The position numbers and the translations under genes were made by a program. Below the pieces are notes generated by a model. That model did no database searches, was not told the DNA's origin, and saw nothing but the letters and a program-made list of their open reading frames with translations. Positions 28,601 to 57,700 of a stretch of 64,000 nt of DNA are shown here, one piece after another. Every line of letters starts with the position of its first letter. Position 1 is the stretch's first letter. The DNA is taken from the NCBI GenBank assembly GCA_037783545.1, contig JBBELK010000543.1, positions 62,001 through 126,000 on the forward strand, written 5' to 3'. This DNA is from Henricia sp. BOLD:AAB3569. Its lineage: Eukaryota; Echinodermata; Asteroidea; Spinulosida; Echinasteridae.

Positions 28601-28720
28601 ACAAGTGCGCAATATAGAGAGTTTAGGGCATGCAAAATTTGAAGTTCGTCGGAACATTTTTCGACCTCCAAATTCGCCGACGTTTGGACCACACTTTGAC
28701 CAAATTGCCTTTTTCTAAAA

Positions 28721-28744: not shown

Positions 28745-28793
28745 CGCTAACCAGTCCAACGTTGTTACCGATAGAACCAGTGCTTCAGCCGTT

Positions 28794-29346: not shown

Positions 29347-29378
29347 GGAAAGAACCCGTACGCCAACCCGACCGCCCC
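29347..29378 (-). mobile_element. SINE 5' head fragment shared with 7850-8131
   Basis: These 32 bp are identical to 8100-8131. On the minus strand they begin GGGGCGGTCGGGTTGGCG and include the A-box-like word TGGCGTACGGG. The B box and the rest of the SINE are absent. Confidence 0.9.
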
Positions 29379-29839: not shown

Positions 29840-29870
29840 GTCTGTCAATTTTTTGAACATTTTTCGACCT
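29840..29870. other. Monomer with 54-bp deletion
   Basis: Between T29854 and G29855 the sequence jumps from GTCAATTTTTT to GAACATTTTTCG, losing 54 bp that include GTGCGCAATATAGAGAG and GGGCATGC. This is the only monomer in the window seen to lack that block. Confidence 0.88.
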
Positions 29871-30087
29871 CCAAATTCGCCGACGTTTGGACCACACTTT
29901 GACCAAATTTCCGAACCAAACTGCGGTGCGTTAACGACAGTCCGAATGACTGAGCATGCGCACAACTCAGGAGTACCCCAAAGAGGTGTGTACAGACAGC
30001 CACGGTTTGCACGAGAGCAGTCAGGAAGCCTCAACCCAGTTTTTTCTAAACTTTGAAATTTCTCTGCCATTTCCCGGCGAAAGTCTG

Positions 30088-35349: not shown

Positions 35350-36309
35350 GGTTTGCGCGAGAGCAGTCAGGAAGCCTCAACCCAGTTTTTTCTAAACTTT
35401 GAAATTTCTCTGCCATTTCCCGGCGAAAGTCTGTCAATTTTTTTATGACAAGTGCGCAATATAGAGAGTTTAGGGCATGCAAAATTTGAAGTTCGTCGGA
35501 ACATTTTTCGACCTCCAAATTTGCCGACGTTTGGACCACACTTTGACCAAATTGCCGAGCCAAACTGCGGTGCGTTAACGACAGTCCGAATGACTGAGCA
35601 TGCGCACAACTCAGGAGTACCCCAAAGAGGTGTGTACAGACAGCCACGGTTTGCGCGAGAGCAGTCAGGAAGCCTCAACCCGGTTTTTTTCTAAACTTTG
35701 AAATTTCTCTGCCATTTCCCGGCGAAAGTCTGTCAATTTTTAATGATAAGTGCGCAATATAGAGAGTTTAGAGCATGCAAAATTTGAAGTTCGTCGGAAC
35801 ATTTTTCGACCTCCAAATTTGCCGACGTTTGGACCACACTTTGACCAAATTGCCGAGCCAAACTGCGGTGCGTTAACGACAGTCTGAATGACTGAGCATG
35901 CGCACAACTCAGGAGTACCCCAAAGAGGTGTGTACAGACAGCTACGGTTTGCGCGAGAGCAGTCAGGACGCCTCAACCCAGTTTGTTCTAAACTTTGAAA
36001 TTTCTCTGCCATTTCCCGGCGAAAGTCTGTCAATTGTTTATGACAAGTGCGCAATATAGAGAGTTTAAGGCATGCAAAATTTGAAGTTCGTCGGAACATT
36101 TTTCGACCTCCAAATTTGCCGACGTTTGGACCACACTTTGACCAAATTGCCGAGCCAAACTGCGGTGCGTTAACGACAGTCCGAATGACTGAGCATGCGC
36201 ACAACTCAGGAGTACCCCAAAGAGGTGTGTACAGACAGCCACGGTTTGCGCGAGAGCAGTCAGGAAGCCTCAACCCAGTTTTTTCTAAACTTTGAAATTT
36301 CTCTGCCAT

Positions 36310-38400
36310 TTCCCGGCGAAAGTCTGTCAATTTGTTATGACAAGTGCGCAATATAGAGAGTTTAGGGCATGCAAAATTTGAAGTTCGTCGGAACATTTTT
36401 CGACCTCCAAATTTGCCGACGTTTGGACCACACTTTGACCAAATTGCCGAACCAAACTGCGGTGCGTTAACGACAGTCCGAATGACTGAGCATGCGCACA
36501 ACTCAGGAGTACCCCAAAGAGGTGTGTACAGACAGCCACGGTTTGCGCGAGAGCAGTCAGGAAGCCTCAACCCAGTTTTTTCTAAACTTTGAAATTTATC
36601 TGCCATTTCCCGGCGAAAGTCTGTCAATTTTTTATGACAAGTGCGCAATATAGAGAGTTTAGGGCATGCAAAATTTGAAGTTCGTCGGAACATTTTTCGA
36701 CCTCCAAATTTGCCGACGTTTGGACCACACTTTGACCAAATTGCCGAGCCAAACTGCGGTGCGTTAACGACAGTCCGAATGACTGAGCATGCGCACAACT
36801 CAGGAGTACCCCAAATAGGTGTGTACAGACAGCCACGGTTTGCGCGAGAGCAGTCAGGAAGCCTCAACCCAGTTTTTTCCTAACTTTGAAATTTCTCTGC
36901 CATTTCCCGGCGAAAGTCTGTCAATTTTTTATGACAAGTGCGCAATATAGAGAGTTTAGGGCATGCAAAATTTGAAGTTCGTCGGAACATTTTTCGACCT
37001 CCAAATTTGCCGACGTTTGGACCACACTTTGACCAAATTGCCGAGCCAAACTGCGGTGCGTTAACGACAGTCTGAATGACTGAGCATGCGCACAACTCAG
37101 GAGTACCCCAAAGAGGTGTGTACAGACAGCCACGGTTTGCGCGAGAGCAGTCAGGAAGCCTTAACCCAGTTTTTTCTAAACTTTGAAATTTCTCTGCCAT
37201 TTCCCGGCGAAAGTCTGTCAATTTTTTATGACAAGTGCGCAATATAGAGAGTTTAGGGCATGCAAAATTTGAAGTTCGTCGGAACATTTTTCGACCTCCA
37301 AATTTGCCGACGTTTGGACCACACTTTGACCAAATTGCCGAGCCAAACTGCGGTGCGTTAACGACAGTCCGAATGACTGAGCATGCGCACAACTCAGGAG
37401 TACCCCAAAGAGGTGTGTACAGACAGCCACGGTTTGCGCGAGAGCAGTCAGGAAGCCTCAACCCAGTTTTTTCTAAACTTTGAAATTTCTCTGCCATTTC
37501 CCGGCGAAAGTCTGTCAATTTGTTATGACAAGTGCGCAATATAGAGAGTTTAGGGCATGCAAAATTTGAAGTTCGTCGGAACATTTTTCGACCTCCAAAT
37601 TTGCCGACGTTTGGACCACACTTTGACCAAATTGCCGAACCAAACTGCGGTGCGTTAACGACAGTCCGAATGACTGAGCATGCGCACAACTCAGGAGTAC
37701 CCCAAAGAGGTGTGTACAGACAGCCACGGTTTGCGCGAGAGCAGTCAGGAAGCCTCAACCCAGTTTTTTCTAAACTTTGAAATTTATCTGCCATTTCCCG
37801 GCGAAAGTCTGTCAATTTTTTATGACAAGTGCGCAATATAGAGAGTTTAGGGCATGCAAAATTTGAAGTTCGTCGGAACATTTTTCGACCTCCAAATTTG
37901 CCGACGTTTGGACCACACTTTGACCAAATTGCCGAGCCAAACTGCGGTGCGTTAACGACAGTCCGAATGACTGAGCATGCGCACAACTCAGGAGTACCCC
38001 AAAGAGGTGTGTACAGACAGCCACGGTTTGCGCGAGAGCAGTCAGGAAGCCTCAACCCAGTTTTTTCCTAACTTTGAAATTTCTCTGCCATTTCCCGGCG
38101 AAAGTCTGTCAATTTTTTATGACAAGTGCGCAATATAGAGAGTTTAGGGCATGCAAAATTTGAAGTTCGTCGGAACATTTTTCGACCTCCAAATTTGCCG
38201 ACGTTTGGACCACACTTTGACCAAATTGCCGAGCCAAACTGCGGTGCGTTAACGACAGTCTGAATGACTGAGCATGCGCACAACTCAGGAGTACCCCAAA
38301 GAGGTGTGTACAGACAGCCACGGTTTGCGCGAGAGCAGTCAGGAAGCCTTAACCCAGTTTTTTCTAAACTTTGAAATTTCTCTGCCATTTCCCGGCGAAA
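36310..38400. repeat. Two-copy 4-monomer HOR (1,188 bp)
   Basis: CAGTTTTTTCCTAAC at 36879 and 38067, GACAGTCTGAATGAC near 37071 and 38259, GCCTTAACCC near 37160 and 38348, and CAATTTGTTATG with CCGAACC near 36327 and 37515 are all 1,188 bp apart. Confidence 0.87.
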
Positions 38401-38838
38401 GTCTGTCAATTTTTTATGACAAGTGCGCAATATAGAGAGTTTAGGGCATGCAAAATTTGAAGTTCGTCGGAACATTTTTCGACCTCCAAATTTGCCGACG
38501 TTTGGACCACACTTTGACCAAATTGCCGAGCCAAACTGCGGTGCGTTAACGACAGTCCGAATGACTGAGCATGCGCACAACTCAGGAGTACCCCAAAGAG
38601 GTGTGTACAGACAGCCACGGTTTGCGCGAGAGCAGTCAGGAAGCCTCAACCCATTTTTTTCTAAACTTTGAAATTTCTCTGCCATTTCCCGGCGAAAGTC
38701 TGTCAATTTTTTATGACAAGTGCGCAATATAGAGAGTTTAGGGCATGCAAAATTTGAAGTTCGTCGGAACATTTTTCGACCTCCAAATTTGCCGACGTTT
38801 GGACCACACTTTGACCAAATTGCCGAGCCAAACTGCGG

Positions 38839-38864
38839 TGCGTTAACGACATGCGTTAACGACA
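38839..38864. repeat. 13-bp tandem duplication within a monomer
   Basis: TGCGTTAACGACA is present twice in a row. The same private duplication is found at 42419-42444, which links the two monomers by descent. Confidence 0.9.
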
Positions 38865-41800
38865 GTCCGAATGACTGAGCATGCGCACAACTCAGGAGTA
38901 CCCCAAAGAGGTGTGTACAGACAGCCACGGTTTGCGCGAGAGCAGTCAGGAAGCCTCAACCCAGTTTTTTTCTAAACTTTGAAATTTCTCTGCCATTTCC
39001 CGGCGAAAGTCTGTCAACTTTTTATGACAAGTGCGCAATATAGAGAGTTTAGGGCATGCCAAATTTGAAGTTCGTCGGAACATTTTTCGACCTCCAAATT
39101 TGCCGACGTTTGGACCACACTTTGACCAAATTGCCGAGCCAAACTGCGGTGCGTTAACGACAGTCCGAATGACTGAGCATGCGCACAACTCAGGAGTACC
39201 CCAAAGAGGTGTGTACAGACAGCCACGGTTTGCGCGAGAGCAGTCAGGAAGCCTCAACCCAGTTTTTTCTAAACTTTGAAATTTCTCTGCCATTTCCCGG
39301 CGAAAGTCTGTCAATTTTTTATGACAAGTGCGCAATATAGAGAGTTTAGGGCATGCAAAATTTGAAGTTCGTCGGAACATTTTTCGACCTCCAAATTTGC
39401 CGACGTTTGGACCACACTTTGACCAAATTGCCGAGCCAAACTGCGGTGCGTTAACGACAGTCCGAATGACTGAGCATGCGCACAACTCAGGAGTACCCCA
39501 AAGAGGTGTGTACAGACAGCCACGGTTTGCGCGAGAGCAGTCAGGAAGCCTTAACCCAGTTTTTTCTAAACTTTGAAATTTCTCTGCCATTTCCCGGCGA
39601 AAGTCTGTCAATTTTTTTATGACAAGTGCGCAATATAGAGAGTTTAGGGCATGCAAAATTTGAAGTTCGTCGGAACATTTTTCGACCTCCAAATTTGCCG
39701 ACGTTTGGACCACACTTTGACCAAATTGCCGAGCCAAACTGCGGTGCGTTAACGACAGTCCGAATGACTGAGCATGCGCACAACTCAGGAGTACCCCAAA
39801 GAGGTGTGTACAGACAGCCACAGTTTGCGCGAGAGCAGTCAGGAAGCCTCAACCCAATTTTTTCTAAACTTTGAAATTTCTCTGCCATTTCCCGGCGAAA
39901 GTCTGTCAATTTCTTATGACAAGTGCGCAATATAGAGAGTTTAGGGCATGCAAAATTTGAAGTTCGTCGGAACATTTTTCGACCTCCAAATTCGCCGACG
40001 TTTGGACCACACTTTGACCAAATTGCCGAGCCAAACTGCGGTGCGTTAACGACAGTCCGAATGACTGAGCATGCGCACAACTCAGGAGTACCCCAAAGAG
40101 GTGTGTACAGACAGCCACGGTTTGCGCGAGAGCAGTCAGGAAGCCTCAACCCAGTTTTTTCTAAACTTTGAAATTTCTCTGCCATTTCCCGGCGAAAGTC
40201 TGTCAATTTTTTATGACAAGTGCGCAATATAGAGAGTTTAGGGCATGCAAAATTTGAAGTTCGTCGGAACATTTTTCGACCTCCAAATTTGCCGACGTTT
40301 GGACCACACTTTGACCAAATTGCCGAACCAAACTGCGGTGCGTTAACGACAGTCCGAATGACTGAGCATGCGCACAACTCAGGAGTACCCCAAAGAGGTG
40401 TGTACAGACAGCCACGGTTTGCGCGAGAGCAGTCAGGAAGCCTTAACCCAGTTTTTTCTAAACTTTGAAATTTCTCTGCCATTTCCCGGCGAAAGTCTGT
40501 CAATTTTTTATGACAAGTGCGCAATATAAAGAGTTTAGGGCATGCAAAATTTGAAGTTCGTCGGAACATTTTTCGACCTCCAAATTTGCCGACGTTTGGA
40601 CCACACTTTGACCAAATTGCGGAGCCAAACTGCGGTGCGTTAACGACAGTCCGAATGACTGAGCATGCGCACAACTCAGGAGTACCCCAAAGAGGTGTGT
40701 ACAGACAGCCACGGTTTGCGCGAGAGCAGTCAGGAAGCCTCAACCCAGTTTTTTCTAAACTTTGAAATTTCTCTGCCATTTCCCGGCGAAAGTCTGTCAA
40801 TTTTTTATGATAAGTGCGCAATATAGAGAGTTTAGAGCATGCAAAATTTGAAGTTCGTCGGAACATTTTTCGACCTCCAAATTTGCCGACGTTTGGACCA
40901 CACTTTGACCAAATTGCCGAGCCAAACTGCGGTGCGTTAACGACAGTCTGAATGACTGAGCATGCGCACAACTCAGGAGTACCCCAAAGAGGTGTGTACA
41001 GACAGCCACGGTTTGCGCGAGAGCAGTCAGGAAGCCTCAACCCAGTTTGTTCTAAACTTTGAAATTTCTCTGCCATTTCCCGGCGAAAGTCTGTCAATTT
41101 TTTATGACAAGTGCGCAATATAGAGAGTTTAGGGCATGCAAAATTTGAAGTTCGTCGGAACATTTTTCGACCTCCAAATTTGCCGACGTTTGGACCACAC
41201 TTTGACCAAATTGCCGAGCCAAACTGCGGTGCGTTAACGACAGTCCGAATGACTGAGCATGCGCACAACTCAGGAGTACCCCAAAGAGGTGTGTACAGAC
41301 AGCCACGGTTTGCGCGAGAGCAGTCAGGAAGCCTCAACCCAGTTTTTTCTAAACTTTGAAATTTCTCTGCCATTTCCCGGCGAAAGTCTGTCAATTTGTT
41401 ATGACAAGTGCGCAATATAGAGAGTTTAGGGCATGCAAAATTTGAAGTTCGTCGGAACATTTTTCGACCTCCAAATTTGCCGACGTTTGGACCACACTTT
41501 GACCAAATTGCCGAACCAAACTGCGGTGCGTTAACGACAGTCCGAATGACTGAGCATGCGCACAACTCAGGAGTACCCCAAAGAGGTGTGTACAGACAGC
41601 CACGGTTTGCGCGAGAGCAGTCAGGAAGCCTCAACCCAGTTTTTTCTAAACTTTGAAATTTCTCTGCCCTTTCCCCGGCGAAAGTCTGTCAATTTTTTAT
41701 GACAAGTGCGCAATATAGAGAGTTTAGGGCATGCAAAATTTGAAGTTCGTCGGAACATTTTTCGACCTCCAAATTTGCCGACGTTTGGACCACACTTTGA

Positions 41801-42418
41801 CCAAATTGCCGAGCCAAACTGCGGTGCGTTAACGACAGTCCGAATGACTGAGCATGCGCACAACTCAGGAGTACCCCAAAGAGGTGTGTACAGACAGCCA
41901 CGGTTTGCGCGAGAGCAGTCAGGAAGCCTCAACCCAGTTTTTTCTAAACTTTGAAATTTCTCTGCCATTTCCCGGCGAAAGTCTGTCAATTTGTTATGAC
42001 AAGTGCGCAATATAGAGAGTTTAGGGCATGCAAAATTTGAAGTTCGTCGGAACATTTTTCGACCTCCAAATTTGCCGACGTTTGGACCACACTTTGACCA
42101 AATTGCCGAGCCAAACTGCGGTGCGTTAACGACAGTCCGAATGACTGAGCATGCGCACAACTCAGGAGTACCCCAAAGAGGTGTGTACAGACAGCCACGG
42201 TTTGCGCGAGAGCAGTCAGGAAGCCTCAACCCAGTTTTTTCTAAACTTTGAAATTTCTCTGCCATTTCCCGGCGAAAGTCTGTCAATTTTTTATGACAAG
42301 TGCGCAATATAGAGAGTTTAGGGCATGCAAAATTTGAAGTTCGTCGGAACATTTTTCGACCTCCAAATTTGCCGACGTTTGGACCACACTTTGACCAAAT
42401 TGCCGAGCCAAACTGCGG

Positions 42419-42444
42419 TGCGTTAACGACATGCGTTAACGACA
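42419..42444. repeat. 13-bp tandem duplication, second occurrence
   Basis: It is identical to 38839-38864 and lies 3,580 bp away, about 12 monomers plus the extra bases. In both places the next monomer has a long T-tract, GTCAACTTTTTATG and GGGCATGCCAAATTTG. Confidence 0.88.
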
Positions 42445-42544
42445 GTCCGAATGACTGAGCATGCGCACAACTCAGGAGTACCCCAAAGAGGTGTGTACAG
42501 ACAGCCACGGTTTGCGCGAGAGCAGTCAGGAAGCCTCAACCCAG

Positions 42545-45520
42545 TTTTTTTTCTAAACTTTGAAATTTCTCTGCCATTTCCCGGCGAAAGTCTGTCAACT
42601 TTTTATGACAAGTGCGCAATATAGAGAGTTTAGGGCATGCCAAATTTGAAGTTCGTCGGAACATTTTTCGACCTCCAAATTTGCCGACGTTTGGACCACA
42701 CTTTGACCAAATTGCCGAGCCAAACTGCGGTGCGTTAACGACAGTCCGAATGACTGAGCATGCGCACAACTCAGGAGTACCCCAAAGAGGTGTGTACAGA
42801 CAGCCACGGTTTGCGTGAGAGCAGTCAGGAAGCCTCAACCCAGTTTTTTCTAAACTTTGAAATTTCTCTGCCATTTCCCGGCGAAAGTCTGTCAATTTTT
42901 TATGACAAGTGCGCAATATAGAGAGTTTAGGGCATGCAAAATTTGAAGTTCGTCGGAACATTTTTCGACCTCCAAATTTGCCGACGTTTGGACCACACTT
43001 TGACCAAATTGCCGAGCCAAACTGCGGTGCGTTAACGACAGTCCGAATGACTGAGCATGCGCACAACTCAGGAGTACCCCAAAGAGGTGTGTACAGACAG
43101 CCACGGTTTGCGCGAGAGCAGTCAGGAAGCCTTAACCCAGTTTTTTCTAAACTTTGAAATTTCTCTGCCATTTCCCGGCGAAAGTCTGTCAATTTTTTTA
43201 TGACAAGTGCGCAATATAGAGAGTTTAGGGCATGCAAAATTTGAAGTTCGTCGGAACATTTTTCGACCTCCAAATTTGCCGACGTTTGGACCACACTTTG
43301 ACCAAATTGCCGAGCCAAACTGCGGTGCGTTAACGACAGTCCGAATGACTGAGCATGCGCACAACTCATGAGTACCCCAAAGAGGTGTGTACAGACAGCC
43401 ACGGTTTGCGCGAGAGCAGTCAGGAAGCCTCAACCCAGTTTTTTCTAAACTTTGAAATTTCTCTGCCATTTCCCGGCGAAAGTCTGTCAATTTTTTATGA
43501 CAAGTGCGCAATATAGAGAGTTTAGGGCATGCAAAATTTGAAGTTCGTCGGAACATTTTTCGACCTCCAAATTTGCCGACGTTTGGACCACACTTTGACC
43601 AAATTGCCGAGCCAAACTGCGGTGCGTTAACGACAGTCCGAATGACTGAGCATGCGCACAACTCAGGAGTACCCCAAAGAGGTGTGTACAGACAGCCACG
43701 GTTTGCGCGAGAGCAGTCAGGAAGCCTCAACCCAGTTTTTTCTAAACTTTGAAATTTCTCTGCCATTTCCCGGCGAAAGTCTGTCAATTTTTTATGACAA
43801 GTGCGCAATATAAAGAGTTTAGGGCATGCAAAATTTGAATTTCGTCGGAACATTTTTCGACCTCCAAATTTGCCGACGTTTGGACCACACTTTGACCAAA
43901 TTGCCGAGCCAAACTGCGGTGCGTTAACGACAGTCCGAATGACTGAGCATGCGCACAACTCAGGAGTACCCCAAAGAGGTGTGTACAGACAGCCACGGTT
44001 TGCGCGAGAGCAGTCAGGAAGCCTCAACCCAGTTTTTTTTCTAAACTTTGAAATTTCTCTGCCATTTCCCGGCGAAAGTCTGTCAACTTTTTATGACAAG
44101 TGCGCAATATAGAGAGTTTAGGGCATGCCAAATTTGAAGTTCGTCGGAACATTTTTCGACCTCCAAATTTGCCGACGTTTGGACCACACTTTGACCAAAT
44201 TGCCGAGCCAAACTGCGGTGCGTTAACGACAGTCCGAATGACTGAGCATGCGCACAACTCAGGAGTACCCCAAAGAGGTGTGTACAGACAGCCACGGTTT
44301 GCGTGAGAGCAGTCAGGAAGCCTCAACCCAGTTTTTTCTAAACTTTGAAATTTCTCTGCCATTTCCCGGCGAAAGTCTGTCAATTTTTTATGACAAGTGC
44401 GCAATATAGAGAGTTTAGGGCATGCAAAATTTGAAGTTCGTCGGAACATTTTTCGACCTCCAAATTTGCCGACGTTTGGACCACACTTTGACCAAATTGC
44501 CGAGCCAAACTGCGGTGCGTTAACGACAGTCCGAATGACTGAGCATGCGCACAACTCAGGAGTACCCCAAAGAGGTGTGTACAGACAGCCACGGTTTGCG
44601 CGAGAGCAGTCAGGAAGCCTTAACCCAGTTTTTTCTAAACTTTGAAATTTCTCTGCCATTTCCCGGCGAAAGTCTGTCAATTTTTTTATGACAAGTGCGC
44701 AATATAGAGAGTTTAGGGCATGCAAAATTTGAAGTTCGTCGGAACATTTTTCGACCTCCAAATTTGCCGACGTTTGGACCACACTTTGACCAAATTGCCG
44801 AGCCAAACTGCGGTGCGTTAACGACAGTCCGAATGACTGAGCATGCGCACAACTCATGAGTACCCCAAAGAGGTGTGTACAGACAGCCACGGTTTGCGCG
44901 AGAGCAGTCAGGAAGCCTCAACCCAGTTTTTTCTAAACTTTGAAATTTCTCTGCCATTTCCCGGCGAAAGTCTGTCAATTTTTTATGACAAGTGCGCAAT
45001 ATAGAGAGTTTAGGGCATGCAAAATTTGAAGTTCGTCGGAACATTTTTCGACCTCCAAATTTGCCGACGTTTGGACCACACTTTGACCAAATTGCCGAGC
45101 CAAACTGCGGTGCGTTAACGACAGTCCGAATGACTGAGCATGCGCACAACTCAGGAGTACCCCAAAGAGGTGTGTACAGACAGCCACGGTTTGCGCGAGA
45201 GCAGTCAGGAAGCCTTAACCCAGTTTTTTCTAAACTTTGAAATTTCTCTGCCATTTCCCGGCGAAAGTCTGTCAATTTTTTATGACAAGTGCGCAATATA
45301 AAGAGTTTAGGGCATGCAAAATTTGAATTTCGTCGGAACATTTTTCGACCTCCAAATTTGCCGACGTTTGGACCACACTTTGACCAAATTGCCGAGCCAA
45401 ACTGCGGTGCGTTAACGACAGTCCGAATGACTGAGCATGCGCACAACTCAGGAGTACCCCAAAGAGGTGTGTACAGACAGCCACGGTTTGCGCGAGAGCA
45501 GTCAGGAAGCCTCAACCCAG
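42545..45520. repeat. Two-copy 5-monomer HOR (1,488 bp)
   Basis: The T8 tract at 42545 recurs at 44033. GTCAACTTTTTATG, GGTTTGCGTGAGAG, ACAACTCATGAG, GCCTTAACCC and AAATTTGAATTTCG recur at the same 1,488-bp offset. The copies are nearly identical; 45210 has a TTAACCC that its partner lacks. Confidence 0.88.
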
Positions 45521-46020
45521 TTTTTTCTAAACTTTGGAATTTCTCTGCCATTTCCCGGCGAAAGTATGTCAATTTTTTTATGACAAGTGCGCAATATAGA
45601 GAGTTTAGGGCATGCAAAATTTGAAGTTCGTCGGAACATTTTTCGACCTCCAAATTTGCCGACGTTTGGACCACACTTTGACCAAATTGTCGAGCCAAAC
45701 TGCGGTGCGTTAACGACAGTCCGAATGACTGAGCATGCGCACAACTCAGGAGTACCCCAAAGAGGTGTGTACAGACAGCCACGGTTTGCGCGAGAGCAGT
45801 CAGGAAGCCTCAACCCAGTTTTTTCTAAACTTTGAAATTTCTCTGCCATTTCCCGGCGAAAGTCTGTCAATTTTTTATGACAAGTGCGCAATATAAAGAG
45901 TTTAGGGCATGCAAAATTTGAATTTCGTCGGAACATTTTTCGACCTCCAAATTTGCCGACGTTTGGACCACACTTTGACCAAATTGCCGAGCCAAACTGC
46001 GGTGCGTTAACGACAGTCCG

Positions 46021-46025
46021 AATGA
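46021..46025. repeat. Left target-site duplication of the DNA transposon
   Basis: AATGA is satellite sequence directly before the left TIR and is repeated at 48672-48676. Removing the element and one copy restores the normal GTCCGAATGACTGAGC. Confidence 0.9.
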
Positions 46026-46057
46026 CCATAGAGCAAGGAACAGAAGGAGTTACAACT
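46026..46057 (+). repeat. Left terminal inverted repeat
   Basis: A 32-bp repeat beginning CCATAGAGCAAGG and ending TTACAACT, identical to the reverse complement of 48640-48671. AGCC follows in both arms after a one-base offset. Confidence 0.95.
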
Positions 46058-46161
46058 AGCCAGACTTCAAATAGACATCGTGTGTTACCGCCGGTCGTAA
46101 AACTGCGAGCGCGCGACCGCAGCTAATCCGTTTAATAAACAAGCGCGCCTGCAGCGAACGA

Positions 46162-46228
46162 TGACGTCATGCAAAATTTCCCATAATGCCCTGCGTGAAG
46201 TTGCGTCCTTGGATTCCAAAATGGCGGC
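46162..46228 (+). promoter_or_regulatory. Promoter-like cluster: CRE and YY1-like words
   Basis: TGACGTCA at 46162-46169 is a perfect cAMP-response-element palindrome. AAAATGGCGGC at 46218-46228 matches the YY1 core AANATGGCGGC. The stretch between them is GC-richer than the rest of the element. In animals such words often sit at the start of broadly expressed genes, so this may be a captured host promoter and 5' end. Function is inferred only from motifs. Confidence 0.45.
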
Positions 46229-46271
46229 GAGCGAAGCGGACAACGCATGTTTCGACTGTTTTGATTTATAG
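46221..46271 (+). CDS. 16-codon ATG open frame after the YY1-like word
   Basis: The ATG of ATGGCGGCG opens a short frame reading MAASEADNACFDCFDL and then stops at TAG. It could be the start of a captured first coding exon or an upstream ORF. It is not in the frame of the PHD fragment 100 bp downstream and no domain is visible. It is listed because it is one of the few ATG-led frames next to promoter words. Confidence 0.2.
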   Translation: MAASEADNACFDCFDL

Positions 46272-46372
46272 ATTTTAGCGATTTAGCGAATTTTCCGATG
46301 AGGATATTGCCATTGGTGATAAAAAGCAACCCTGGTCTGTCTGCATCAGATGGTGAAGATATTCCCCAGTAG

Positions 46373-46747
46373 GAGACCATACCCGACGGAGACTGGTTTT
46401 GTCCCCGATGCATCTCGGCTAAAAAAGAAAACGGTATAAAGAAAAATTTGTTCTGGATTTTTTTTGGGAGGCGTATGGTTGTTTGGAGGAAGAATTTACA
46501 AACCAAACTGGACATCACTAATTAAACAAAATAAAACATGCCACAAAAAAGGCAAGAACAAATATGAAAACTTGCCTCAAAAAGTAAATAAAAGTCGGAC
46601 CTTATTTAATGTTGCTTTTTCTTTAAAAACATGAATGTCTGTAATTGACAATTTTAAATTTCCATTTATTTTTTAGCACCCCCAAGCGCCCAGAGACCGC
46701 GTTCACCAAAGAAGATGCCCTGCAATGTGCAACCATCCTCTTCATAG
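46373..46747 (+). pseudogene. PHD-finger (BAZ2-like) fragment with a plausible intron
   Basis: Codons 46373-46411 read ETIPDGDWFCPRC, the end of a PHD zinc finger (IP-x-G-x-W-x-C-P-x-C), followed by a lysine-rich stretch. From memory, the closest match is the PHD finger of the BAZ2A/BAZ2B chromatin-remodelling subunits, which bind unmodified histone H3 tails. The upstream zinc ligands are not in frame: TAG lies directly before, at the end of CCCCAGTAG, which could also be a splice acceptor. A donor-like CG|GTATAA at 46433/46434 and an acceptor TTTATTTTTTAG ending at 46676 would remove 243 bp and keep the frame (g+CA, Ala), continuing APPSAQRPRSPKKMPCNVQP to a stop at 46745-46747. It is most simply a truncated host-gene piece carried by the transposon. 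The PHD identity is fairly secure; the splicing is inference. Confidence 0.55.
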
Positions 46748-46932
46748 CGGCTCTTCAAGAAATGAAAAGCCATCCCATTTTCAACTGTGGAAGTCGAGCA
46801 TCTCTCGGTGCCATCAGCCTTATCACGCATCTTCTGCTGAATACTCAAAGAGGATGAATTTTTAGATTTTTGCAACTCATCAGTTTTAGCCTTGTGTGCT
46901 ATTCTTACATCATGTGAAAGCAAATGTCTCAA
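46666..46932 (-). CDS. Unrecognised minus-strand open frame in the transposon
   Basis: An open stretch of about 88 codons (open back to 46965) ending at the stop beside the splice-like TTTTTTAG. The translation is hydrophilic and Lys/Glu/Ser-rich (KTDELQKSKNSSSLSIQQKM, then TVENGMAFHFLKSRYEEDGC), with a composition more protein-like than the opposing frame. There is no ATG at its start, only TTG, so if real it would be an internal exon. No domain is recognised. It overlaps the putative PHD downstream exon on the other strand, so at most one of the two is coding. Confidence 0.2.
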   Translation of the reverse strand: MRHLLSHDVRIAHKAKTDELQKSKNSSSLSIQQKMRDKADGTERCSTSTVENGMAFHFLKSRYEEDGCTLQGIFFGERGLWALGGAKK

Positions 46933-47110
46933 ACCAGAACGGTATGAAGAGATGTGGCGGAACTTTCATGAATACAGAATCAGTTCTCGTTCGGAATGGC
47001 TGAAACTTTTAAACGTACTGAACATCCCTATTAAGTCGGAACAGCTTTATAACCATAGAGAAATTTACATAAAACCTTTTGTCCAACATAAAACATGTAC
47101 ATGTATTTAA
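46892..47110 (+). CDS. Unrecognised plus-strand open frame in the transposon
   Basis: A 72-codon frame opening at TTG rather than ATG. It includes CLKPERYEEMWRNFHEYRIS and SRSEWLKLLNVLNI, a charged, aromatic-rich stretch that looks like part of a folded protein. A TTTTAG just upstream (46884-46889) could be an acceptor. It may be a remnant exon of a transposon protein or of the captured gene. I cannot name a family. Confidence 0.22.
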   Translation: MCAILTSCESKCLKPERYEEMWRNFHEYRISSRSEWLKLLNVLNIPIKSEQLYNHREIYIKPFVQHKTCTCI

Positions 47111-47429: not shown

Positions 47430-48360
47430 ACATGTGGCAGGACGAAAATTTGACCTTAAAAGTCGCTTTTATTTTAATTATTTTCTGTGGACGTTTCGGT
47501 AGTGGACTGTCGTCAATGACCAATGGACTGGACTCGTCGTTGTTACGGACATTGGCACGCTTAGAGGCTCTAATAGCCACTCTGGAAACATAAAACGCCA
47601 TCATGTTGTTGTGTCTAAACTGCTCGGCTGAGGGGTTGTCGGTTGCTTAGTAGTGCTATAGGTACTCCACATCTGGGTTCTGCAGAAAACCAAAAAAACA
47701 AATGTCACATTTGTTAAGTTCTACAAAAAATGTTGCATACGTGGGTCTCGGGTAGTGGCCGAGTATGATATTCATTCCAAGAAAGACTTCTTGTAAAAGC
47801 TAGGGCGGGGAGAAATTTTTTTTTAAATGAAAGAAATAGAACATGAAACGGCCCCCGGGCATTTTGTCCTATACAACATGCAGAAAAATAGTACTGACTA
47901 CACGACTGTTTCATGTCGAAATTTATTATTCCATTTTATTGTCATTTTGGTACAGGAAAACAGTCTAAAGCGTCAAAACAATCATAATTTTGCACTGATA
48001 ATGTTAAAAATTCAATATCAGCAATAAAAACGGGAAAACATATATTTTAGGAAGGATTTGGTCGAGGCAAGTTTCAAAAATTGACGAAAATTTTGAGATT
48101 TTCGTCGGTTTTTTTCAGCATGTGTCTCGCTGTGTCTCGATTGGAAAACACCATTTTTGGAAAGTACAAAGTCTAACGAATACATTCCACACATTTTTAG
48201 GCCTAGGAAACACACGAACGGGTGACTTTTCCATAGATTTATGAATATCATATTCATGGACTTTCCGTTGACATTATGAGAAACAAACCAACGTAACTTT
48301 CCAACCGATCGGCCGATTCTGACGGTTCAAAGTTGTGAACGAAGTCGATTTTCTTTTCTA
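47430..48360. other. AT-rich transposon interior, no gene recognised
   Basis: About 930 bp of AT-rich DNA with only short frames led by no clear ATG context. It has small structures: GACGAAAAT/ATTTTCGTC (48083-48106, 6-nt loop), a 17-bp palindrome ATGAATATCATATTCAT (48241-48257), and a doubled TGTGTCTCG near 48120. No transposase motif is seen. Confidence 0.6.
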
Positions 48361-48361
48361 C

Positions 48362-48520
48362 AAGATGGCGCAAGGACCGTACTCTTCCGGTGCATGTATG
48401 GGGTTAAATGCGCATGCGTTGTCGTTGTTTGTTCTGGCGTCTTCTCTCCAGTTATGAATGGAAAACGACGGCTACCAGTGACGCGCAGCGAAACTCGGTA
48501 ACACACGTAGGGTATAAAGC
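48362..48520 (+). promoter_or_regulatory. Promoter-like words near the right end
   Basis: AAGATGGCG (48362-48370) is YY1-like, TGCGCATGCGTT (48409-48420) matches most of the NRF-1 site YGCGCAYGCGCR, and GTATAAA (48512-48518) is TATA-like, about 150 bp from the right end and pointing out into the satellite. These are motif matches only. Such a set could drive read-through transcription of the satellite or could be a relic of a host promoter. Confidence 0.3.
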
Positions 48521-48639
48521 CAGGCTGCGGTCAGCGATGTTTGAGCGCGCAGTGGGCGATCGATAAATGGTCCGTACACTTTGCACAGGGCGAGGGAGGT
48601 GATAATTGCTCTCAATAAATCTGATTAGCGGAGGGGCTG

Positions 48640-48671
48640 AGTTGTAACTCCTTCTGTTCCTTGCTCTATGG
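48640..48671 (-). repeat. Right terminal inverted repeat
   Basis: The reverse complement equals 46026-46057 over all 32 bp. The lack of any mismatch suggests a recent insertion. Confidence 0.95.
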
Positions 48672-48676
48672 AATGA
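48672..48676. repeat. Right target-site duplication of the DNA transposon
   Basis: AATGA, matching 46021-46025. The satellite monomer resumes with CTGAGCATGCGCAC in the original phase. Confidence 0.9.
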
Positions 48677-51600
48677 CTGAGCATGCGCACAACTCAGGAG
48701 TACCCCAAAGAGGTGTGTACAGACAGCCACGGTTTGCGCGAGAGCAGTCAGGAAGCCTCAACCCAGTTTTTTCTAAACTTTGAAATTTCTCTGCCATTTC
48801 CCGGCGAAAGTCTGTCAATTTTTTTATGACAAGTGCGCAATATAGAGAGTTTAGGGCATGCAAAATTTGAAGTTCGTCGGAACATTTTTCGACCTCCAAA
48901 TTTGCCGACGTTTGGACCACACTTTGACCAAATTGCCGAGCCAAACTGCGGTGCGTTAACGACAGTCCGAATGACTGAACATGCGCACAACTCAGGAGTA
49001 CCCCAAAGAGGTGTGTACAGACAGCCACGGTTTGCGCGAGAGCAGTCAGGAAGCCTCAACCCATTTTTTTCTAAACTTTGAAATTTCTCTGCCATTTCCC
49101 GGCGAAAGTATGTCAATTTTTTTATGACAAGTGCGCAATATAGAGAGTTTAGGGCATGCAAAATTTGAAGTTCGTCGGAACATTTTTCGACCTCCAAATT
49201 TGCCGACGTTTGGACCACACTTTGACCAAATTGCCGAGCCAAACTGCGGTGCGTTAACGACAGTCCGAATGACTGAGCATGCGCACAACTCAGGAGTACC
49301 CCAAAGAGGTGTGTACAGACAGCCACGGTTGGCGCGAGAGCAGTCAGGAAGCCTCAACCCAGTTTTTTCTAAACTTTGAAATTTCTCTGCCATTTCCCGG
49401 CGAAAGTCTGTCAATTTTTTATGACAAGTGCGCAATATAGAGAGTTTAGGGCATGCAAAATTTGAAGTTCGTCGGAACATTTTTCGACCTCCAAATTTGC
49501 CGACGTTTGGACCACACTTTGACCAAATTGCCGAGCCAAACTGCGGTGCGTTAACGACAGTCCGAATGACTGAGCATGCGCACAACTCAGGAGTACCCCA
49601 AAGAGGTGTGTACAGACAGCCACGGTTTGCGCGAGAGCAGTCAGGAAGCCTCAACCCAGTTTTTGTCTAAACTTTGAAATTTCTCTGCCATTTCCCGGCG
49701 AAAGTCTGTCAATTTTTTATGACAAGTGCGCAATATAGAGAGTTTAGGGCATGCAAAATTTGAAGTTCGTCGGAACATTTTTCGACCTCCAAATTTGCCG
49801 ACGTTTGGACCACACTTTGACCAAATTGCCGAGCCAAACTGCGGTGCGTTAACGACAGTCCGAATGACTGAGCATGCGCACAACTCAGGAGTACCCCAAA
49901 GAGGTGTGTACAGACAGCCACGGTTTGCGCGAGAGCAGTCAGGAAGCCTCAACCCAGTTTTTTCTAAACTTTGAAATTTCTCTGCCATTTCCCGGCGAAA
50001 GTCTGTCAATTTTTTATGACAAGTGCGCAATATAGAGAGTTTAGGGCATGCAAAATTTGAAGTTCGTCGGAACATTTTTCGACCTCCAAATTTGCCGACG
50101 TTTGGACCACACTTTGACCAAATTGCCGAACCAAACTGCGGTGCGTTAACGACAGTCCGAATGACTGAGCATGCGCACAACTCAGGAGTGCCCCAAAGAG
50201 GTGTGTACAAACAGCCACGGTTTGCGCGAGAGCAGTCAGGAAGCCTCAACCCAGTTTTTTCTAAACTTTGAAATTTCTCTGCCATTTCCCGGCGAAAGTC
50301 TGTCAATTTTTTATGACAAGTGCGCAATATAGAGAGTTTAGGGCATGCAAAATTTGAAGTTCGTCGGAACATTTTTCGACCTCCAAATTTGCCGAGGTTT
50401 GGACCACACTTTGACCAAATTGCCGAGCCAAACTGCGGTGCGTTAACGACAGTCCGAATGACTGAGCATGCGCACAACTCAGGAGTACCCCAAAGAGGTG
50501 TGTACAGACAGCCACGGTTTGCGCGAGAGCAGTCAGGAAGCCTCAACCCAGTTTTTTCTAAACTTTGAAATTTCTCTGCCATTTCCCGGCGAAAGTCTGT
50601 CAATTTTGTATGACAAGTGCGCAATATAGAGAGTTTAGGGCATGCAAAATTTGAAGTTCGTCGGAACATTTTTCGACCTCCAAATTTGCCGACGTTTGGA
50701 CCACACTTTGACCAAATTGCCGAGCCAAACTGCGGTGCGTTAACGACAGTCCGAATGACTGAGCATGCGCACAACTCAGGAGTACCCCAAAGAGGTGTGT
50801 ACAGACAGCCACGGTTTGCGCGAGAGCAGTCAGGAAGCCTCAACCCAGTTTTTTCTAAACTTTGAAATTTCTCTGCCATTTCCCGGCGAAAGTCTGTCAA
50901 TTTTTTATGACAAGTGCGCAATATAGAGAGTTTAGGGCATGCAAAATTTGAAGTTCGTCGGAACATTTTTCGACCTCCAAATTGGCCGACGTTTGGACCA
51001 CACTTTGACCAAATTGCCGAACCAAACTGCGGTGCGTTAACGACAGTCCGAATGACTGAGCATGCGCACAACTCAGGAGTGCCCCAAAGAGGTGTGTACA
51101 GACAGCCACGGTTTGCGCGAGAGCAGTCAGGAAGCCTCAACCCAGTTTTTTCTAAACTTTGAAATTTCTCTGCCATTTCCCGGCGAAAGTCTGTCATTTT
51201 TTTATGACAAGTGCGCAATATAGAGAGTTTAGGGCATGCAAAATTTGAAGTTCGTCGGAACATTTTTCGACCTCCAAATTTGCCGACGTTTGGACCACAC
51301 TTTGACCAAATTGCCGAGCCAAACTGCGGTGCGTTAACGACAGTCCGAATGACTGAGCATGCGCACAACTCAGGAGTACCCCAAAGAGGTGTGTACAGAC
51401 AGCCACGGTTTGCGCGAGAGCAGTCAGGAAGCCTCAACCCAGTTTTTTCTAAACTTTGAAATTTCTCTGCCATTTCCCGGCGAAAGTCTGTCAATTTTGT
51501 ATGACAAGTGCGCAATATAGAGAGTTTAGGGCATGCAAAATTTGAAGTTCGTCGGAACATTTTTCGACCTCCAAATTTGCCGACGTTTGGACCACACTTT

Positions 51601-51720
51601 GACCAAATTGCCGAGCCAAACTGCGGTGCGTTAACGACAGTCCGAATGACTGAGCATGCGCACAACTCAGGAGTACCCCAAAGAGGTGTGTACAGACAGC
51701 CACGGTTTGCGCGAGAGCAG

Positions 51721-54700
51721 TCAGGAAGCCTCAACCCAGTTTTTTTCTAAACTTTGAAATTTCTCTGCCATTTCCCGGCGAAAGTCTGTCAATTTTTTAT
51801 GATAAGTGCGCAATATAGAGAGTTTAGGGCATGCAAAATTTGAAGTTCGTCGGAACATTTTTCGACCTCCAAATTTGCCGACGTTTGGACCACACTTTGA
51901 CCAAATTGCCGAGCCAAACTGCGGTGCGTTAACGACAGTCTGAATGACTGAGCATGCGCACAACTCAGGAGTATCCCAAAGAGGTGTGTACAGACAGCCA
52001 CGGTTTGCGCGAGAGCAGTCAGGAAGCCTCAACCCAGTTTTTTCTAAACTTTGAAATTTCTCTGCCATTTCCCGGCGAAAGTCTGTCAATTTTTGTATGA
52101 CAAGTGCGCAATATAGAGAGTTTAGGGCATGCAAAATTTGAAGTTCGTCGGAACATTTTTCGACCTCCAAATTTGCCGACGTTTGGACCACACTTTGACC
52201 AAATTGCCGAGCCAAACTGCGGTGCGTTAACGACAGTCCGAATGACTGAGCATGCGCACAACTCAGGAGTACCCCAAAGAGGTGTGTACAGACAGCCACG
52301 GTTTGCGCGAGAGCAGTCAGGAAGCCTCAACCCAGTTTTTTCTAAACTTTGAAATTTCTCTGCCATTTCCCGGCGAAAGTCTGTCAATTTTTTATGACAA
52401 GTGCGCAATATAAAGAGTTTAGGGCATGCAAAATTTGAAGTTCGTCGGAACATTTTTCGACCTCCAAATTTGCCGACGTTTGGACCACACTTTGACCAAA
52501 TTGCCGAGCCAAACTGCGGTGCGTTAACGACAGTCCGAATGACTGAGCATGCGCACAACTCAGGAGTACCCCAAAGAGGTGTGTACAGACAGCCACGGTT
52601 TGCGCGAGAGCAGTCAGGAAGCCTCAACCCAGTTTTTTCTAAACTTTGAAATTTCTCTGCCATTTCCCGGCGAAAGTCTGTCAATTTTTTTATGACAAGT
52701 GCGCAATATAGAGAGTTTAGGGCATGCAAAATTTGAAGTTCGTCGGAACATTTTTCGACCTCCAAATTTGCCGACGTTTGGACCACACTTTGACCAAATT
52801 GCCGAGCCAAACTGCGGTGCGTTAACGACAGTCCGAATGACTGAACATGCGCACAACTCAGGAGTACCCCAAAGAGGTGTGTACAGACAGCCACGGTTTG
52901 CGCGAGAGCAGTCAGGAAGCCTCAACCCAGTTTTTTCTAAACTTTGAAATTTCTCTGCCATTTCCCGGCGAAAGTATGTAAATTTTTTTATGACAAGTGC
53001 GCAATATAGAGAGTTTAGGGCATGCAAAATTTGAAGTTCGTCGGAACATTTTTCGACCTCCAAATTTGCCGACGTTTGGACCACACTTTGACCAAATTGC
53101 CGAGCCAAACTGCGGTGCGTTAACGACAGTCCGAATGACTGAGCATGCGCACAACTCAGGAGTACCCCAAAGAGGTGTGTACAGACAGCCACGGTTGGCG
53201 CGAGAGCAGTCAGGAAGCCTCAACCCAGTTTTTTCTAAACTTTGAAATTTCTCTGCCATTTCCCGGCGAAAGTCTGTCAATTTTTTATGACAAGTGCGCA
53301 ATATAGAGAGTTTAGGGCATGCAAAATTTGAAGTTCGTCGGAACATTTTTCGACCTCCAAATTTGCCGACGTTTGGACCACACTTTGACCAAATTGCCGA
53401 GCCAAACTGCGGTGCGTTAACGACAGTCCGAATGACTGAGCATGCGCACAACTCAGGAGTACCCCAAAGAGGTGTGTACAGACAGCCACGGTTTGCGCGA
53501 GAGCAGTCAGGAAGCCTCAACCCAGTTTTTTCTAAACTTTGAAATTTCTCTGCCATTTCCCGGCGAAAGTCTGTCAATTTTTTATGACAAGTGCGCAATA
53601 TAGAGAGTTTAGGGCATGCAAAATTTGAAGTTCGTCGGAACATTTTTCGACCTCCAAATTTGCCGACGTTTGGACCACACTTTGACCAAATTGCCGAGCC
53701 AAACTGCGGTGCGTTAACGACAGTCCGAATGACTGAGCATGCGCACAACTCAGGAGTACCCCAAAGAGGTGTGTACAGACAGCCACGGTTTGCGCGAGAG
53801 CAGTCAGGAAGCCTCAACCCAGTTTTTTCTAAACTTTGAAATTTCTCTGCCATTTCCCGGCGAAAGTCTGTCAATTTGTTATGACAAGTGCGCAATATAG
53901 AGAGTTTAGGGCATGCAAAATTTAAAGTTCGTCGGAACATTTTTCGACCTCCAAATTTGCCGACGTTTGGACCACACTTTGACCAAATTGCCGAACCAAA
54001 CTGCGGTGCGTTAACGACAGTCCGAATGACTGAGCATGCGCACAACTCAGGAGTGCCCCAAAGAGGTGTGTACAGACAGCCACGGTTTGCGCGAGAGCAG
54101 TCAGGAAGCCTCAACCCGGTTTTTTCTAAACTTTGAAATTTCTCTGCCATTTCCCGGCGAAAGTCTGTCAATTTTTTATGACAAGTGCGCAATATAGAGA
54201 GTTTAGGGCATGCAAAATTTGAAGTTCGTCGGAACATTTTTCGACCTCCAAATTTGCCGACGTTTGGACCACACTTTGACCAAATTGCCGAGCCAAACTG
54301 CGGTGCGTTAACGACAGTCCGAATGACTGAGCATGCGCACAACTCAGGAGTACCCCAAAGAGGTGTGTACAGACAGCCACGGTTTGCGCGAGAGCAGTCA
54401 GGAAGCCTCAACCCAGTTTTTTCTAAACTTTGAAATTTCTCTGCCATTTCCCGGCGAAAGTCTGTCAATTTTTTATGACAAGTGCGCAATATAGAGAGTT
54501 TAGGGCATGCAAAATTTGAAGTTCGTCGGAACATTTTTCGACCTCCAAATTTGCCGACGTTTGGACCACACTTTGACCAAATTGCCGAGCCAAACTGCGG
54601 TGCGTTAACGACAGTCCGAATGACTGAGCATGCGCACAACTCAGGAGTACCCCAAAGAGGTGTGTACAGACAGCCACGGTTTGCGCGAGAGCAGTCAGGA

Positions 54701-57700
54701 AGCCTCAACCCAGTTTTTTTCTAAACTTTGAAATTTCTCTGCCATTTCCCGGCGAAAGTCTGTCAATTTTTGTATGACAAGTGCGCAATATAGAGAGTTT
54801 AGGGCATGCAAACTTTGAAGTTCGTCGGAACATTTTTCGACCTCCAAATTTGCCGACGTTTGGACCACACTTTGACCAAATTGCCGAGCCAAACTGCGGT
54901 GCGTTAACGACAGTCCGAATGACTGAACATGCGCACAACTCAGGAGTACCCCAAAGAGGTGTGTACAGACAGCCACGGTTTGCGCGAGAGCAGTCAGGAA
55001 GCCTCAACCCAGTTTTTTCTAAACTTTGAAATTTCTCTGCCATTTCCCGGCTAAAGTATGTCAATTTTTTTATGACAAGTGCGCAATATAGAGAGTTTAG
55101 GGCATGCAAAATTTGAAGTTCGTCGGAACATTTTTCGACCTCCAAATTTGCCGACGTTTGGACCACACTTTGACCAAATTGCCGAGCCAAACTGCGGTGC
55201 GTTAACGACAGTCCGAATGACTGAGCATGCGCACAACTCAGGAGTACCCCAAAGAGGTGTGTACAGACAGCCACGGTTGGCGCGAGAGCAGTCAGGAAGC
55301 CTCAACCCAGTTTTTTCTAAACTTTGAAATTTCTCTGCCATTTCCCGGCGAAAGTCTGTCAATTTTTTATGACAAGTGCGCAATATAGAGAGTTTAGGCC
55401 ATGCAAAATTTGAAGTTCGTCGGAACATTTTTCGACCTCCAAATTTGCCGACGTTTGGACCACACTTTGACCAAATTGCCGAGCCAAACTGCGGTGCGTT
55501 AACGACAGTCCGAATGACTGAGCATGCGCACAACTCAGGAGTACCCCAAAGAGGTGTGTACAGACAGCCACGGTTTGCGCGAGAGCAGTCAGGAAGCCTA
55601 AACCCAGTTTTTTCTAAACTTTGAAATTTCTCTGCCATTTCCCGGCGAAAGTCTGTCAATTTTTTATGACAAGTGCGCAATATAGAGAGTTTAGGGCATG
55701 CAAAATTTGAAGTTCGTCGGAACATTTTTCGACCTCCAAATTTGCCGACGTTTGGACCACACTTTGACCAAATTGCCGAGCCAAACTGCGGTGCGTTAAC
55801 GACAGTCCGAATGACTGAGCATGCGCACAACTCAGGAGTACCCCAAAGAGGTGTGTACAGACAGCCACGGTTTGCGCGAGAGCAGTCAGGAAGCCTCAAC
55901 CCAGTTTTTTCTAAACTTTGAAATTTCTCTGCCATTTCCCGGCGAAAGTCTGTCCATTTTTTATGACAAGTGCGCAATATAGAGAGTTTAGGGCATGCAA
56001 AATTTGAAGTTCGTCGGAACATTTTTCGACCTCCAAATTTGCCGACGTTTGGACCACACTTTGACCAAATTGCCGAGCCAAACTGCGGTGCGTTAACGAC
56101 AGTCCGAATGACTGAGCATGCGCACAACTCATGAGTACCCCAAAGAGGTGTGTACAGACAGCCACGGTTTGCGCGAGAGCAGTCAGGAAGCCTCAACCCA
56201 GTTTTTTCTAAACTTTGAAATTTCTCTGCCATTTCCCGGCGAAAGTCTGTCAATTTTTTATGACAAGTGCGCAATATAGAGAGTTTAGGGCATGCAAAAT
56301 TTGAAGTTCGTCGGAACATTTTTCGACCTCCAAATTTGCCGACGTTTGGACCACACTTTGACCAAATTGCCGAACCAAACTGCGGTGCGTTAACGACAGT
56401 CCGAATGACTGAGCATGCGCACAACTCAGGAGTGCCCCAAAGAGGTGTGTACAGACAGCCACGGTTTGCGCGAGAGCAGTCAGGAAGCCTCAACCCAGTT
56501 TTTTCTAAACTTTGAAATTTCTCTGCCATTTCCCGGCGAAAGTCTGTCAATTTTTTATGACAAGTGCGCAATATAGAGAGTTTAGGGCATGCAAAATTTG
56601 AAGTTCGTCGGAACATTTTTCGACCTCCAAATTTGCCGACGTTTGGACCACACTTTGACCAAATTGCCGAGCCAAACTGCGGTGCGTTAACGACAGTCCG
56701 AATGACTGAGCATGCGCACAACTCAGGAGTACCCCAAAGAGGTGTGTACAGACAGCCACGGTTTGCGCGAGAGCAGTCAGGAAGCCTCAACCCAGTTTTT
56801 TTCTAAACTTTGAAATTTATCTGCCATTTCCCGGCGAAAGTCTGTCAATTTTTTATGATAAGTGCGCAATATAGAGAGTTTAGGGCATGCAAAATTTGAA
56901 GTTCGTCGGAACATTTTTCGACCTCCAAATTTGCCGACGTTTGGACCACACTTTGACCAAATTGCCGAGCCAAACTGCGGTGCGTTAACGACAGTCTGAA
57001 TGACTGAGCATGCGCACAACTCAGGAGTACCCCAAAGAGATGTGTACAGACAGCCACGGTTTGCGCGAGAGCAGTCAGGAAGCCTCAACCCAGTTTTTTC
57101 TAAACTTTGAAATTTCTCTGCCATTTCCCGGCGAAAGTCTGTCAATTTTTGTATGACAAGTGCGCAATATAGAGAGTTTAGGGCATGCAAAATTTGAAGT
57201 TCGTCGGAACATTTTTCGACCTCCAAATTTGCCGACGTTTGGACCACACTTTGACCAAATTGCCGAGCCAAACTGCGGTGCGTTAACGACAGTCCGAATG
57301 ACTGAGCATGCGCACAACTCAGGAGTACCCCAAAGAGGTGTGTACAGACAGCCACGGTTTGCGCGAGAGCAGTCAGGAAGCCTCAACCCAGTTTTTTCTA
57401 AACTTTGAAATTTCTCTGCCATTTCCCGGCGAAAGTCTGTCAATTTTTGTATGACAAGTGCGCAATATAGAGAGTTTAGGGCATGCAAAATTTGAAGTTC
57501 GTCGGAACATTTTTCGACCTCCAAATTTGCCGACGTTTGGACCACACTTTGACCAAATTGCCGAGCCAAACTGCGGTGCGTTAACGACAGTCCGAATGAC
57601 TGAGCATGCGCACAACTCAGGAGTACCCCAAAGAGGTGTGTACAGACAGCCACGGTTTGCGCGAGAGCAGTCAGGAAGCCTCAACCCAGTTTTTTCTAAA

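Follow-up and report, generated by a model that had tools for sequence, protein, structure and literature searches.

A PHD-finger fragment within a satellite-embedded element of Henricia sp. is very probably a remnant of a resident gene of a two-gene P-superfamily transposon family

The window analysed here is a stretch of 64,000 nucleotides from Henricia sp. BOLD:AAB3569 (G000:C543:62001-126000; C-numbers denote contigs of the window's own genome, 740.7 Mb in 2,104 contigs). It is filled by a 297-bp satellite, which is broken at 46027-48670 by an element of 2,644 bp (Table 1). The perfect terminal inverted repeats (TIRs), and the element that the first-pass annotation had drawn around a chromatin-gene fragment, are real: the TIRs are 100% complementary over 32 nt (46026-46057 and 48640-48671), and the element is flanked by a 7-bp target site duplication (TSD). 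Joining of the flanks, minus one copy of the TSD, yields a 40-mer that occurs 160 times in the window. Two further non-satellite insertions are present in the array, at 7834-8130 and 28710-29376, the latter of which holds 3.5 copies of a 67-bp repeat.

Table 1. Positions in the window of the element, its component parts and the surrounding satellite.
Feature	Position	Strand	Basis
297-bp satellite, left of element	1..46026		TRF period 297, 154.9 copies
Left TSD GAATGAC, 7 bp	46020..46026		direct repeat of element flanks
Left TIR CATAGAGCAAGGAACAGAAGGAGTTACAACT	46027..46057	+	inverted-repeat match
Gene A subterminal GGTCGTAAAAC and promoter words (CRE, AAAATGGC)	46093..46225	+	sequence reading
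Gene A exon 1 remnant (MAASEADNACFDCFDL then stop, decayed beyond)	46221..46433	+	stop at 46269-46271
98-bp deletion junction, 46371/46372	46370..46373	+	comparison with second C593 exon copy
PHD finger C-terminal end ETIPDGDWFCPRCISAKKEN, up to donor	46373..46433	+	translation, comparison with relatives
Predicted gene A intron, phase 1, acceptor TTTTTTAG	46434..46676	+	sequence reading
Gene A exon 2 remnant, frameshifted	46677..47050	+	tblastn of relatives' exon 2
Gene B (P-type transposase) C-terminal remnant	47491..47643	-	tblastn of C155, C476 C-terminal exons
Right-end region, presumed gene B promoter	48364..48639	-	GATGGCGC 48364, CTTCCGGT 48384, TGCGCATGCGT 48409 on +
Right TIR	48640..48670	-	inverted-repeat match
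Right TSD GAATGAC	48671..48677		direct repeat of element flanks
297-bp satellite, right of element	48671..64000		TRF period 297, 51.5 copies

The CRE and ATGGCGGC words reported earlier are present inside the left TIR, as TGACGTCA at 46162-46169 and AAAATGGC at 46218-46225, the second overlapping an ATG at 46221; the motif names of these and other regulatory words at the element ends, GATGGCGC, CTTCCGGT and TGCGCATGCGT included, are those that we take them to carry. The frame that opens at this ATG runs for 16 codons before a stop. The short ATG frame of the first-pass annotation was also recovered (46298-46369) and is closed by a TAG (46370-46372) immediately ahead of ETIP, with ETIPDGDWFCPRC located at 46373-46411. 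In the second exon copy of C593, a longer relative, 98 bp separate the counterparts of window bases 46371 and 46372, indicating that an internal deletion cost the window copy the first half of a C4HC3 PHD finger and left the in-frame TAG directly before ETIP. The predicted intron that follows has the donor GTATAA in the window and GTAAGA in C593, and in exon 2 the window has CACCCCCAAG in place of the CACCCAAG of C593, a 2-bp insertion of two extra C's, such that a spliced product departs from the ancestral frame. The splice sites proposed at 46433 and 46677 do coincide, by sequence reading, with an intron predicted in four related lineages, but the frame is not kept through them, given the 16-codon stop, the TAG before ETIP and the shift in exon 2. 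Indeed, the spliced translation ends in KKENAPPSAQRPRSPKKMPCNVQPSSS and a stop, about two dozen codons past the junction, and an open frame through 46433/46677 was dropped as a candidate. Because of the early stop, the 98-bp PHD deletion and the 2-bp insertion, the window copy is coding-dead and cannot make a PHD protein.

Remnants of two genes were identified by tblastn searches of the window element with 478 open frames, those of the full elements described below among them, as queries (rows at E values of 1e-5 to 1e-2 were disregarded). Exon 2 of the gene to which the PHD piece belongs, referred to here as gene A, matches 46663-47050 (+) with E values of 1.0e-21 (C476), 2.6e-15 (C155) and 4.1e-18 (C156), the remnant being frameshifted by +2 bp near 46680 and again near 46850. 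On the opposite strand, 47491-47643 (-) matches the C-terminal exons of the P-type transposases of C155 (E=9.8e-13) and C476 (E=7.1e-12) at 45-49% identity; Pfam recognises no domain in this fragment taken alone. The element ends also have words in common with the full elements. CGGTCGTAAAA, between the left end and the ATG, occurs in C476, C155 and C156 too, and with ATGGC forms the left-end words common to the window element and these parents, while ACGCATGCGCA and GCGCCATC are found at the right end of C155 on the same strand as in the window. Judged by these matches, the ancestor of the window element carried a P-type transposase, and the gene remnants on both strands, combined with the shared end words, make up the picture of an internal deletion derivative.

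Eight near-full copies of the family, including that in the window, were identified, with pairwise identities of 94.9-99.9%. The PHD fragment is retained in six of them (window, C543:29445, C366, C760, C793 and C676), and in every one of these the deletion junction recurs, as do the two extra C's of exon 2; C176 and C362 have another internal deletion, by which the PHD has been removed. A 7-bp TSD accompanies six of the eight, namely GAATGAC (window, C543:29445 and C676), GTTTATG (C366), CTGTGAC (C760) and ATGTAAC (C176), and C362 and C793 gave no resolved TSD. The copy at C543:29445 may be a duplicate of the window copy or an independent one, since its flanks slip in the satellite alignment and do not separate the two. 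The member at 1609-4132 of C676 (L014) occupies the same GAATGAC site of the 297-bp satellite in the opposite orientation, indicating that this site has probably been hit twice. In C793 (L013, 4944-7967) two family copies lie head to tail, the second being a left-end fragment that begins directly after the first copy, whose last bases are gone.

Allowing at most two mismatches, the genome contains the TIR 30-mer at 57 places, compared with none for a reversed-pattern control. Seventeen of 20 sampled single TIR ends proved to be one short solo end carried within a different repeat family, so that counting TIRs gives too high a number of elements. This solo end, of approximately 50 bp (CATAGAG...CTATGG), has been amplified along with the repeat family in which it is embedded (L022-L024, L026-L029, L031-L040). 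The other three start like the right end of the window element, and one of these, at C461 (L041), is a 95-bp miniature element with both family ends.

More of the left half survives in longer relatives of the window's own lineage, in C593 and C653, where exon 1 reads MAASEADNACFDCFDEYDFSDFS(DFS)DEDIGDESN(H/P)DLSASDGEDIPQYCVCNRPITQEMIGCDAEKCPIEWW..., i.e. MAASEADNACFDCFDEYDFSDFS..YCVCNRPITQEMIGCDAEKCPIEWW beyond the point at which the window copy stops. Neither has an intact PHD exon, the C593 copy being frameshifted within the finger and that of C653 interrupted, and no P-type transposase was recognised in 20 kb of each, both stretches being full of insertions. The link of this lineage to the transposase gene is therefore drawn from the window's own remnant, from the likeness of the TIRs and from more divergent lineages.

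A genome search with exon 2 of C593 as query led to C155, C156, C476 and C364, all of them with long open frames. Since C364 matches C476 at 99.93% identity along 13.8 kb, flanks included, these four loci amount to three independent elements. In each, gene A lies to the left in forward orientation; its exon 1 encodes an acidic stretch and a C4HC3 PHD finger, and its exon 2 encodes about 340 amino acids with a fold lacking a known counterpart (open frames of 353, 273 and 350 aa). A second gene, gene B, lies to the right in reverse orientation, convergent with gene A in C155, C156 and C476/C364, and encodes a P-type transposase. In the two transposases scanned, C155 and C156, PF21787 (RNaseH_N) was matched at 1.1e-24 and 6.1e-25 and PF21789 (RNaseH_C) at 9.1e-07 and 4.7e-08, respectively; PF21788 (the GTP-binding insertion) scored above its cut-off in C156 (2.8e-06) and just below it in C155 (5.5e-05, 24.0 versus 24.8 bits). 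On these predicted domains, RNaseH_N, GTP-binding insertion and RNaseH_C, the parent elements are assigned to the P superfamily. P-type transposases usually carry a THAP domain at the N-terminus. The Pfam scan of the C155 transposase gave no THAP row at E≤0.1, and its N-terminus (L056:1-1827 (+)) is zf-AD-like at 22.1 bits, below the cut-off of 28. The C155 element is bounded by TIRs at both ends and spans 2052 to about 10645 of the joined and reversed stretch, with the TIR CATGGAGGTAGGAAAAGATGGAGTTAGCTC, which equals that of the window at 21 of the first 26 positions, and a 7-bp TSD, GTACAAC; a closed TIR pair with TSD was found for C155 and not for C476 or C156.

In C476, C155, C156 and C593 alike, the predicted gene A intron occupies one and the same position, in phase 1, by sequence reading. 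Divergence between elements was ordered pos2<pos1<pos3 by codon position in all 12 pairwise comparisons (three of exon 1, six of exon 2, three of which involved the C593 piece, and three of the transposase), a bias in both genes that fits purifying selection. Amino acid identity among C476, C155 and C156 is 34-46% for exon 2 and 45-54% for the transposase. Gene A has the look of a conserved gene.

The regularity with which genes A and B are paired bears on whether the PHD piece was instead captured from the host. The first-pass annotation had proposed capture in the manner of Pack-type elements; on such a reading, the window element or its immediate progenitor took up a fragment of a host BAZ2 or other PHD gene. 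Such elements do exist in animals, where 370 Pack-TIRs have been reported from a set of 100 genomes (PMC8277862), so that the accompanying remark that they are rarely described in animals is not confirmed; they resemble the window element in being TIR elements with coding fragments, but the window fragment comes from the family's own gene as opposed to host sequence. A capture would also be in keeping with the decayed exon-2 loci C267 and C366:1139189, where no transposase was found in 9 kb each, and with the 21-residue window peptide, to which the BAZ2B PHD is closest in PDB. Against it, the PHD domain as a whole is ING-like, several divergent elements have gene A with a common promoter region and a predicted intron in common, facing the transposase in convergent orientation, and the window element itself holds a transposase remnant. 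Of 38 rows in the transposase search, the four that match at least 430 residues without a stop are C155, C156, C476 and C364, each with gene A; likewise, exon 2 of C476 as query gave 28 rows, of which the same four loci supply the four longest without a stop (264-350 residues), all beside a transposase. No intact alternative to the four was seen among the other exon-2 rows, several of which are known by their search row only. At C210, a PHD exon, exon 2 and the transposase C-terminus all lie within about 2.7 kb, and the exon-2 matches at C463, C305 and C1032 resemble that of C210. The capture reading appears largely contradicted by the shared gene order and is regarded as very unlikely; it was dropped following the findings of the convergent transposase in relatives and of the remnant in the window, the fragment being the 5' part of the family's own second gene.

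The window element is very probably non-autonomous, a member of a two-gene P-superfamily transposon family that has undergone internal deletion, and the PHD piece part of a resident gene. Confidence is held short of certainty because the pairing is missing at some loci. In addition to C267 and C366:1139189, no gene A was found in 8 kb at C254 or in 7 kb at C9, both broken transposase loci (that at C9 being stop-free over 328 residues), and the contigs of the distant P-type frames C882, C1280, C356, C298, C666, C175 and C258 have no exon-2 row. At C4, the fragments of the two genes share one strand and are not convergent.

The identity of the PHD finger was assessed separately for the short window string and for the whole domain of its relatives. 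The first-pass annotation had described a BAZ2-like PHD-finger end forming an H3-binding module. Short as it is, ETIPDGDWFCPRC matches the BAZ2B PHD in PDB better than chance would give (phmmer E=2.1e-05), yet the window piece taken alone has no PHD recognised by Pfam at E≤1, and the resemblance to BAZ2 is confined to this string. Searched against solved structures, an alignment of three natural sequences (A2) has ING3 as its best match (2.5e-18); the first 20 of its 33 rows at E≤1e-3 are all of ING/YNG/PHO23 type and none of the 33 is BAZ2. A composite of the domain, hand-joined from pieces of the window's own lineage, gave ING3 at 1.6e-17 versus BAZ2B at 4.7e-05, and scored 25.6 bits on the Pfam PHD model (PF00628, cut-off 24); of the single sequences, C155 passes with 26.3 bits, and C156 (22.6) and C476 (18.5) fall below. 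By sequence likeness the transposon PHD is nearest to ING proteins, not BAZ2, and homology to BAZ2 was dropped; the histone-reading class of the module is retained. The C4HC3 ligands, the Y/F before the first Cys and the M and W at aligned positions are as in ING PHD fingers, and the ligands, Met and Trp are invariant among the three A2 sequences, the Met and Trp lying at what we take, from the ING literature, to be the ING cage positions. Unlike ING proteins, gene A has no visible ING N-terminal domain, and its PHD is joined to the unknown exon-2 domain. PHD exons like exon 1 of gene A are also present at C430:222127-222405 and 209282-209497 (in frames of 382 and 136 aa, respectively), on a contig with neither an exon-2 row nor a transposase row; these may belong to a host gene, a domesticated copy or another element.

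That the string arose by chance in non-coding transposon DNA might be argued from the lack of an open frame across the PHD piece in the window copy, and from the silence of Pfam on that piece. However, the C593 and C653 copies supply, upstream, the other half of a C4HC3 finger, and the natural relative C155 scores above the PF00628 cut-off. This reading is refuted by the relatives, and can hardly be credited at all.

A different question is where gene A itself came from. A P-type element may have gained an ING-type PHD exon from a host gene long before the lineages split, and kept it as a working second gene, a history that is compatible with the resident-gene explanation and that we consider slightly better than evenly balanced. 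It is favoured by the nearness of the PHD to ING proteins. No convincing relative of exon 2 emerged from Pfam, NCBIfam or PDB, and the two exons may therefore differ in origin: searches of PDB gave nothing at E≤1, those of viral contigs and GTDB genomes gave no relatives, and those of Pfam, NCBIfam and PHROGs gave a lone FANCF row (E=0.029) below its cut-off. Against it, no host donor was identified in the window's genome, and the present data give neither direction nor date.

Under the resident-gene explanation, the parent element would make two proteins: from gene A, one in which an acidic stretch and an ING-like PHD finger are joined to a conserved domain with no recognised fold, and from gene B, at the right end in reverse, the P-type transposase. 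Internal deletions would have taken most of both genes while sparing both ends with their TIRs and promoter regions, and transposase made elsewhere could mobilise such deleted copies in trans, one of which would have inserted into the 297-bp satellite. The RAG2 PHD is thought to steer or regulate RAG1. By analogy, the gene A protein may be a partner of the transposase, and its PHD may bind H3K4me, thereby steering or regulating transposition.

Among known systems, P-superfamily elements (Drosophila P, Galileo/1360, zebrafish Pdre2) share with the parent transposase the RNaseH_N, GTP-binding insertion and RNaseH_C domains. The Pdre2 TIR, CATACCTGTCAAC, starts with CAT (PMC10983969), as does that of the present family, and Pdre, like the window family, has internally deleted copies. 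Most Galileo copies have a 7-bp TSD, with the consensus GTATTAC (PMC4168063), and a 7-bp TSD is likewise seen in the window family and in C155. The present parents differ in adding a second, convergent PHD-finger gene, and in the N-terminus of the C155 transposase, which looks zf-AD-like at a sub-threshold score and gave no THAP row. RAG-like transposons are reported to have convergent genes too, with a RAG2 that carries an acidic hinge and a PHD, and the PHD of a sea urchin RAG2L to bind H3 methylated at K4 (PMC7204232). RAGL/ProtoRAG elements, which are of Transib type, accordingly match the parents in placing two convergent genes, for a transposase and a PHD-finger protein, between TIRs. 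However, the present transposase is of P and not Transib type, and the TSD is of 7 bp, not 5 bp; moreover, the RAG2-like PHD follows kelch repeats, whereas that of gene A is near the N-terminus with the unknown domain after it. Membership of the RAG-like transposons was rejected, the P-type domains and 7-bp TSD standing against the Transib/RAG1-type transposase and 5-bp TSD. The parent family resembles the RAG1L-RAG2L arrangement, and thereby the ancestor of the RAG1-RAG2 immune recombinase, yet sits in the P superfamily. Tentatively, and with a little less than even confidence, it may represent a two-component P-superfamily lineage in which a transposase works together with the element's own PHD protein, reading H3K4me via an ING-type cage, as an independent invention of a RAG1/RAG2-like plan of convergent genes, an acidic stretch with a PHD, and transposition tied to the reading of chromatin.

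P-type elements, internally deleted derivatives and animal Pack-TIRs are already known. No P-superfamily lineage equipped with a further, convergent PHD gene turned up in the open literature, a scope outside which Repbase reports and subscription papers lie, and this is not proof of its being unpublished. The parent family is a more interesting result than the window copy, which itself serves as a reminder that a chromatin-gene fragment between TIRs need not mean host capture where that gene is part of the parent element. In immune evolution, the retention of a PHD-finger partner by the RAG transposon still calls for an explanation. With a second, unrelated superfamily built on a similar two-gene plan, one could test whether the recruitment of H3K4me readers, for sensing or targeting open chromatin, has happened repeatedly among DNA transposons.
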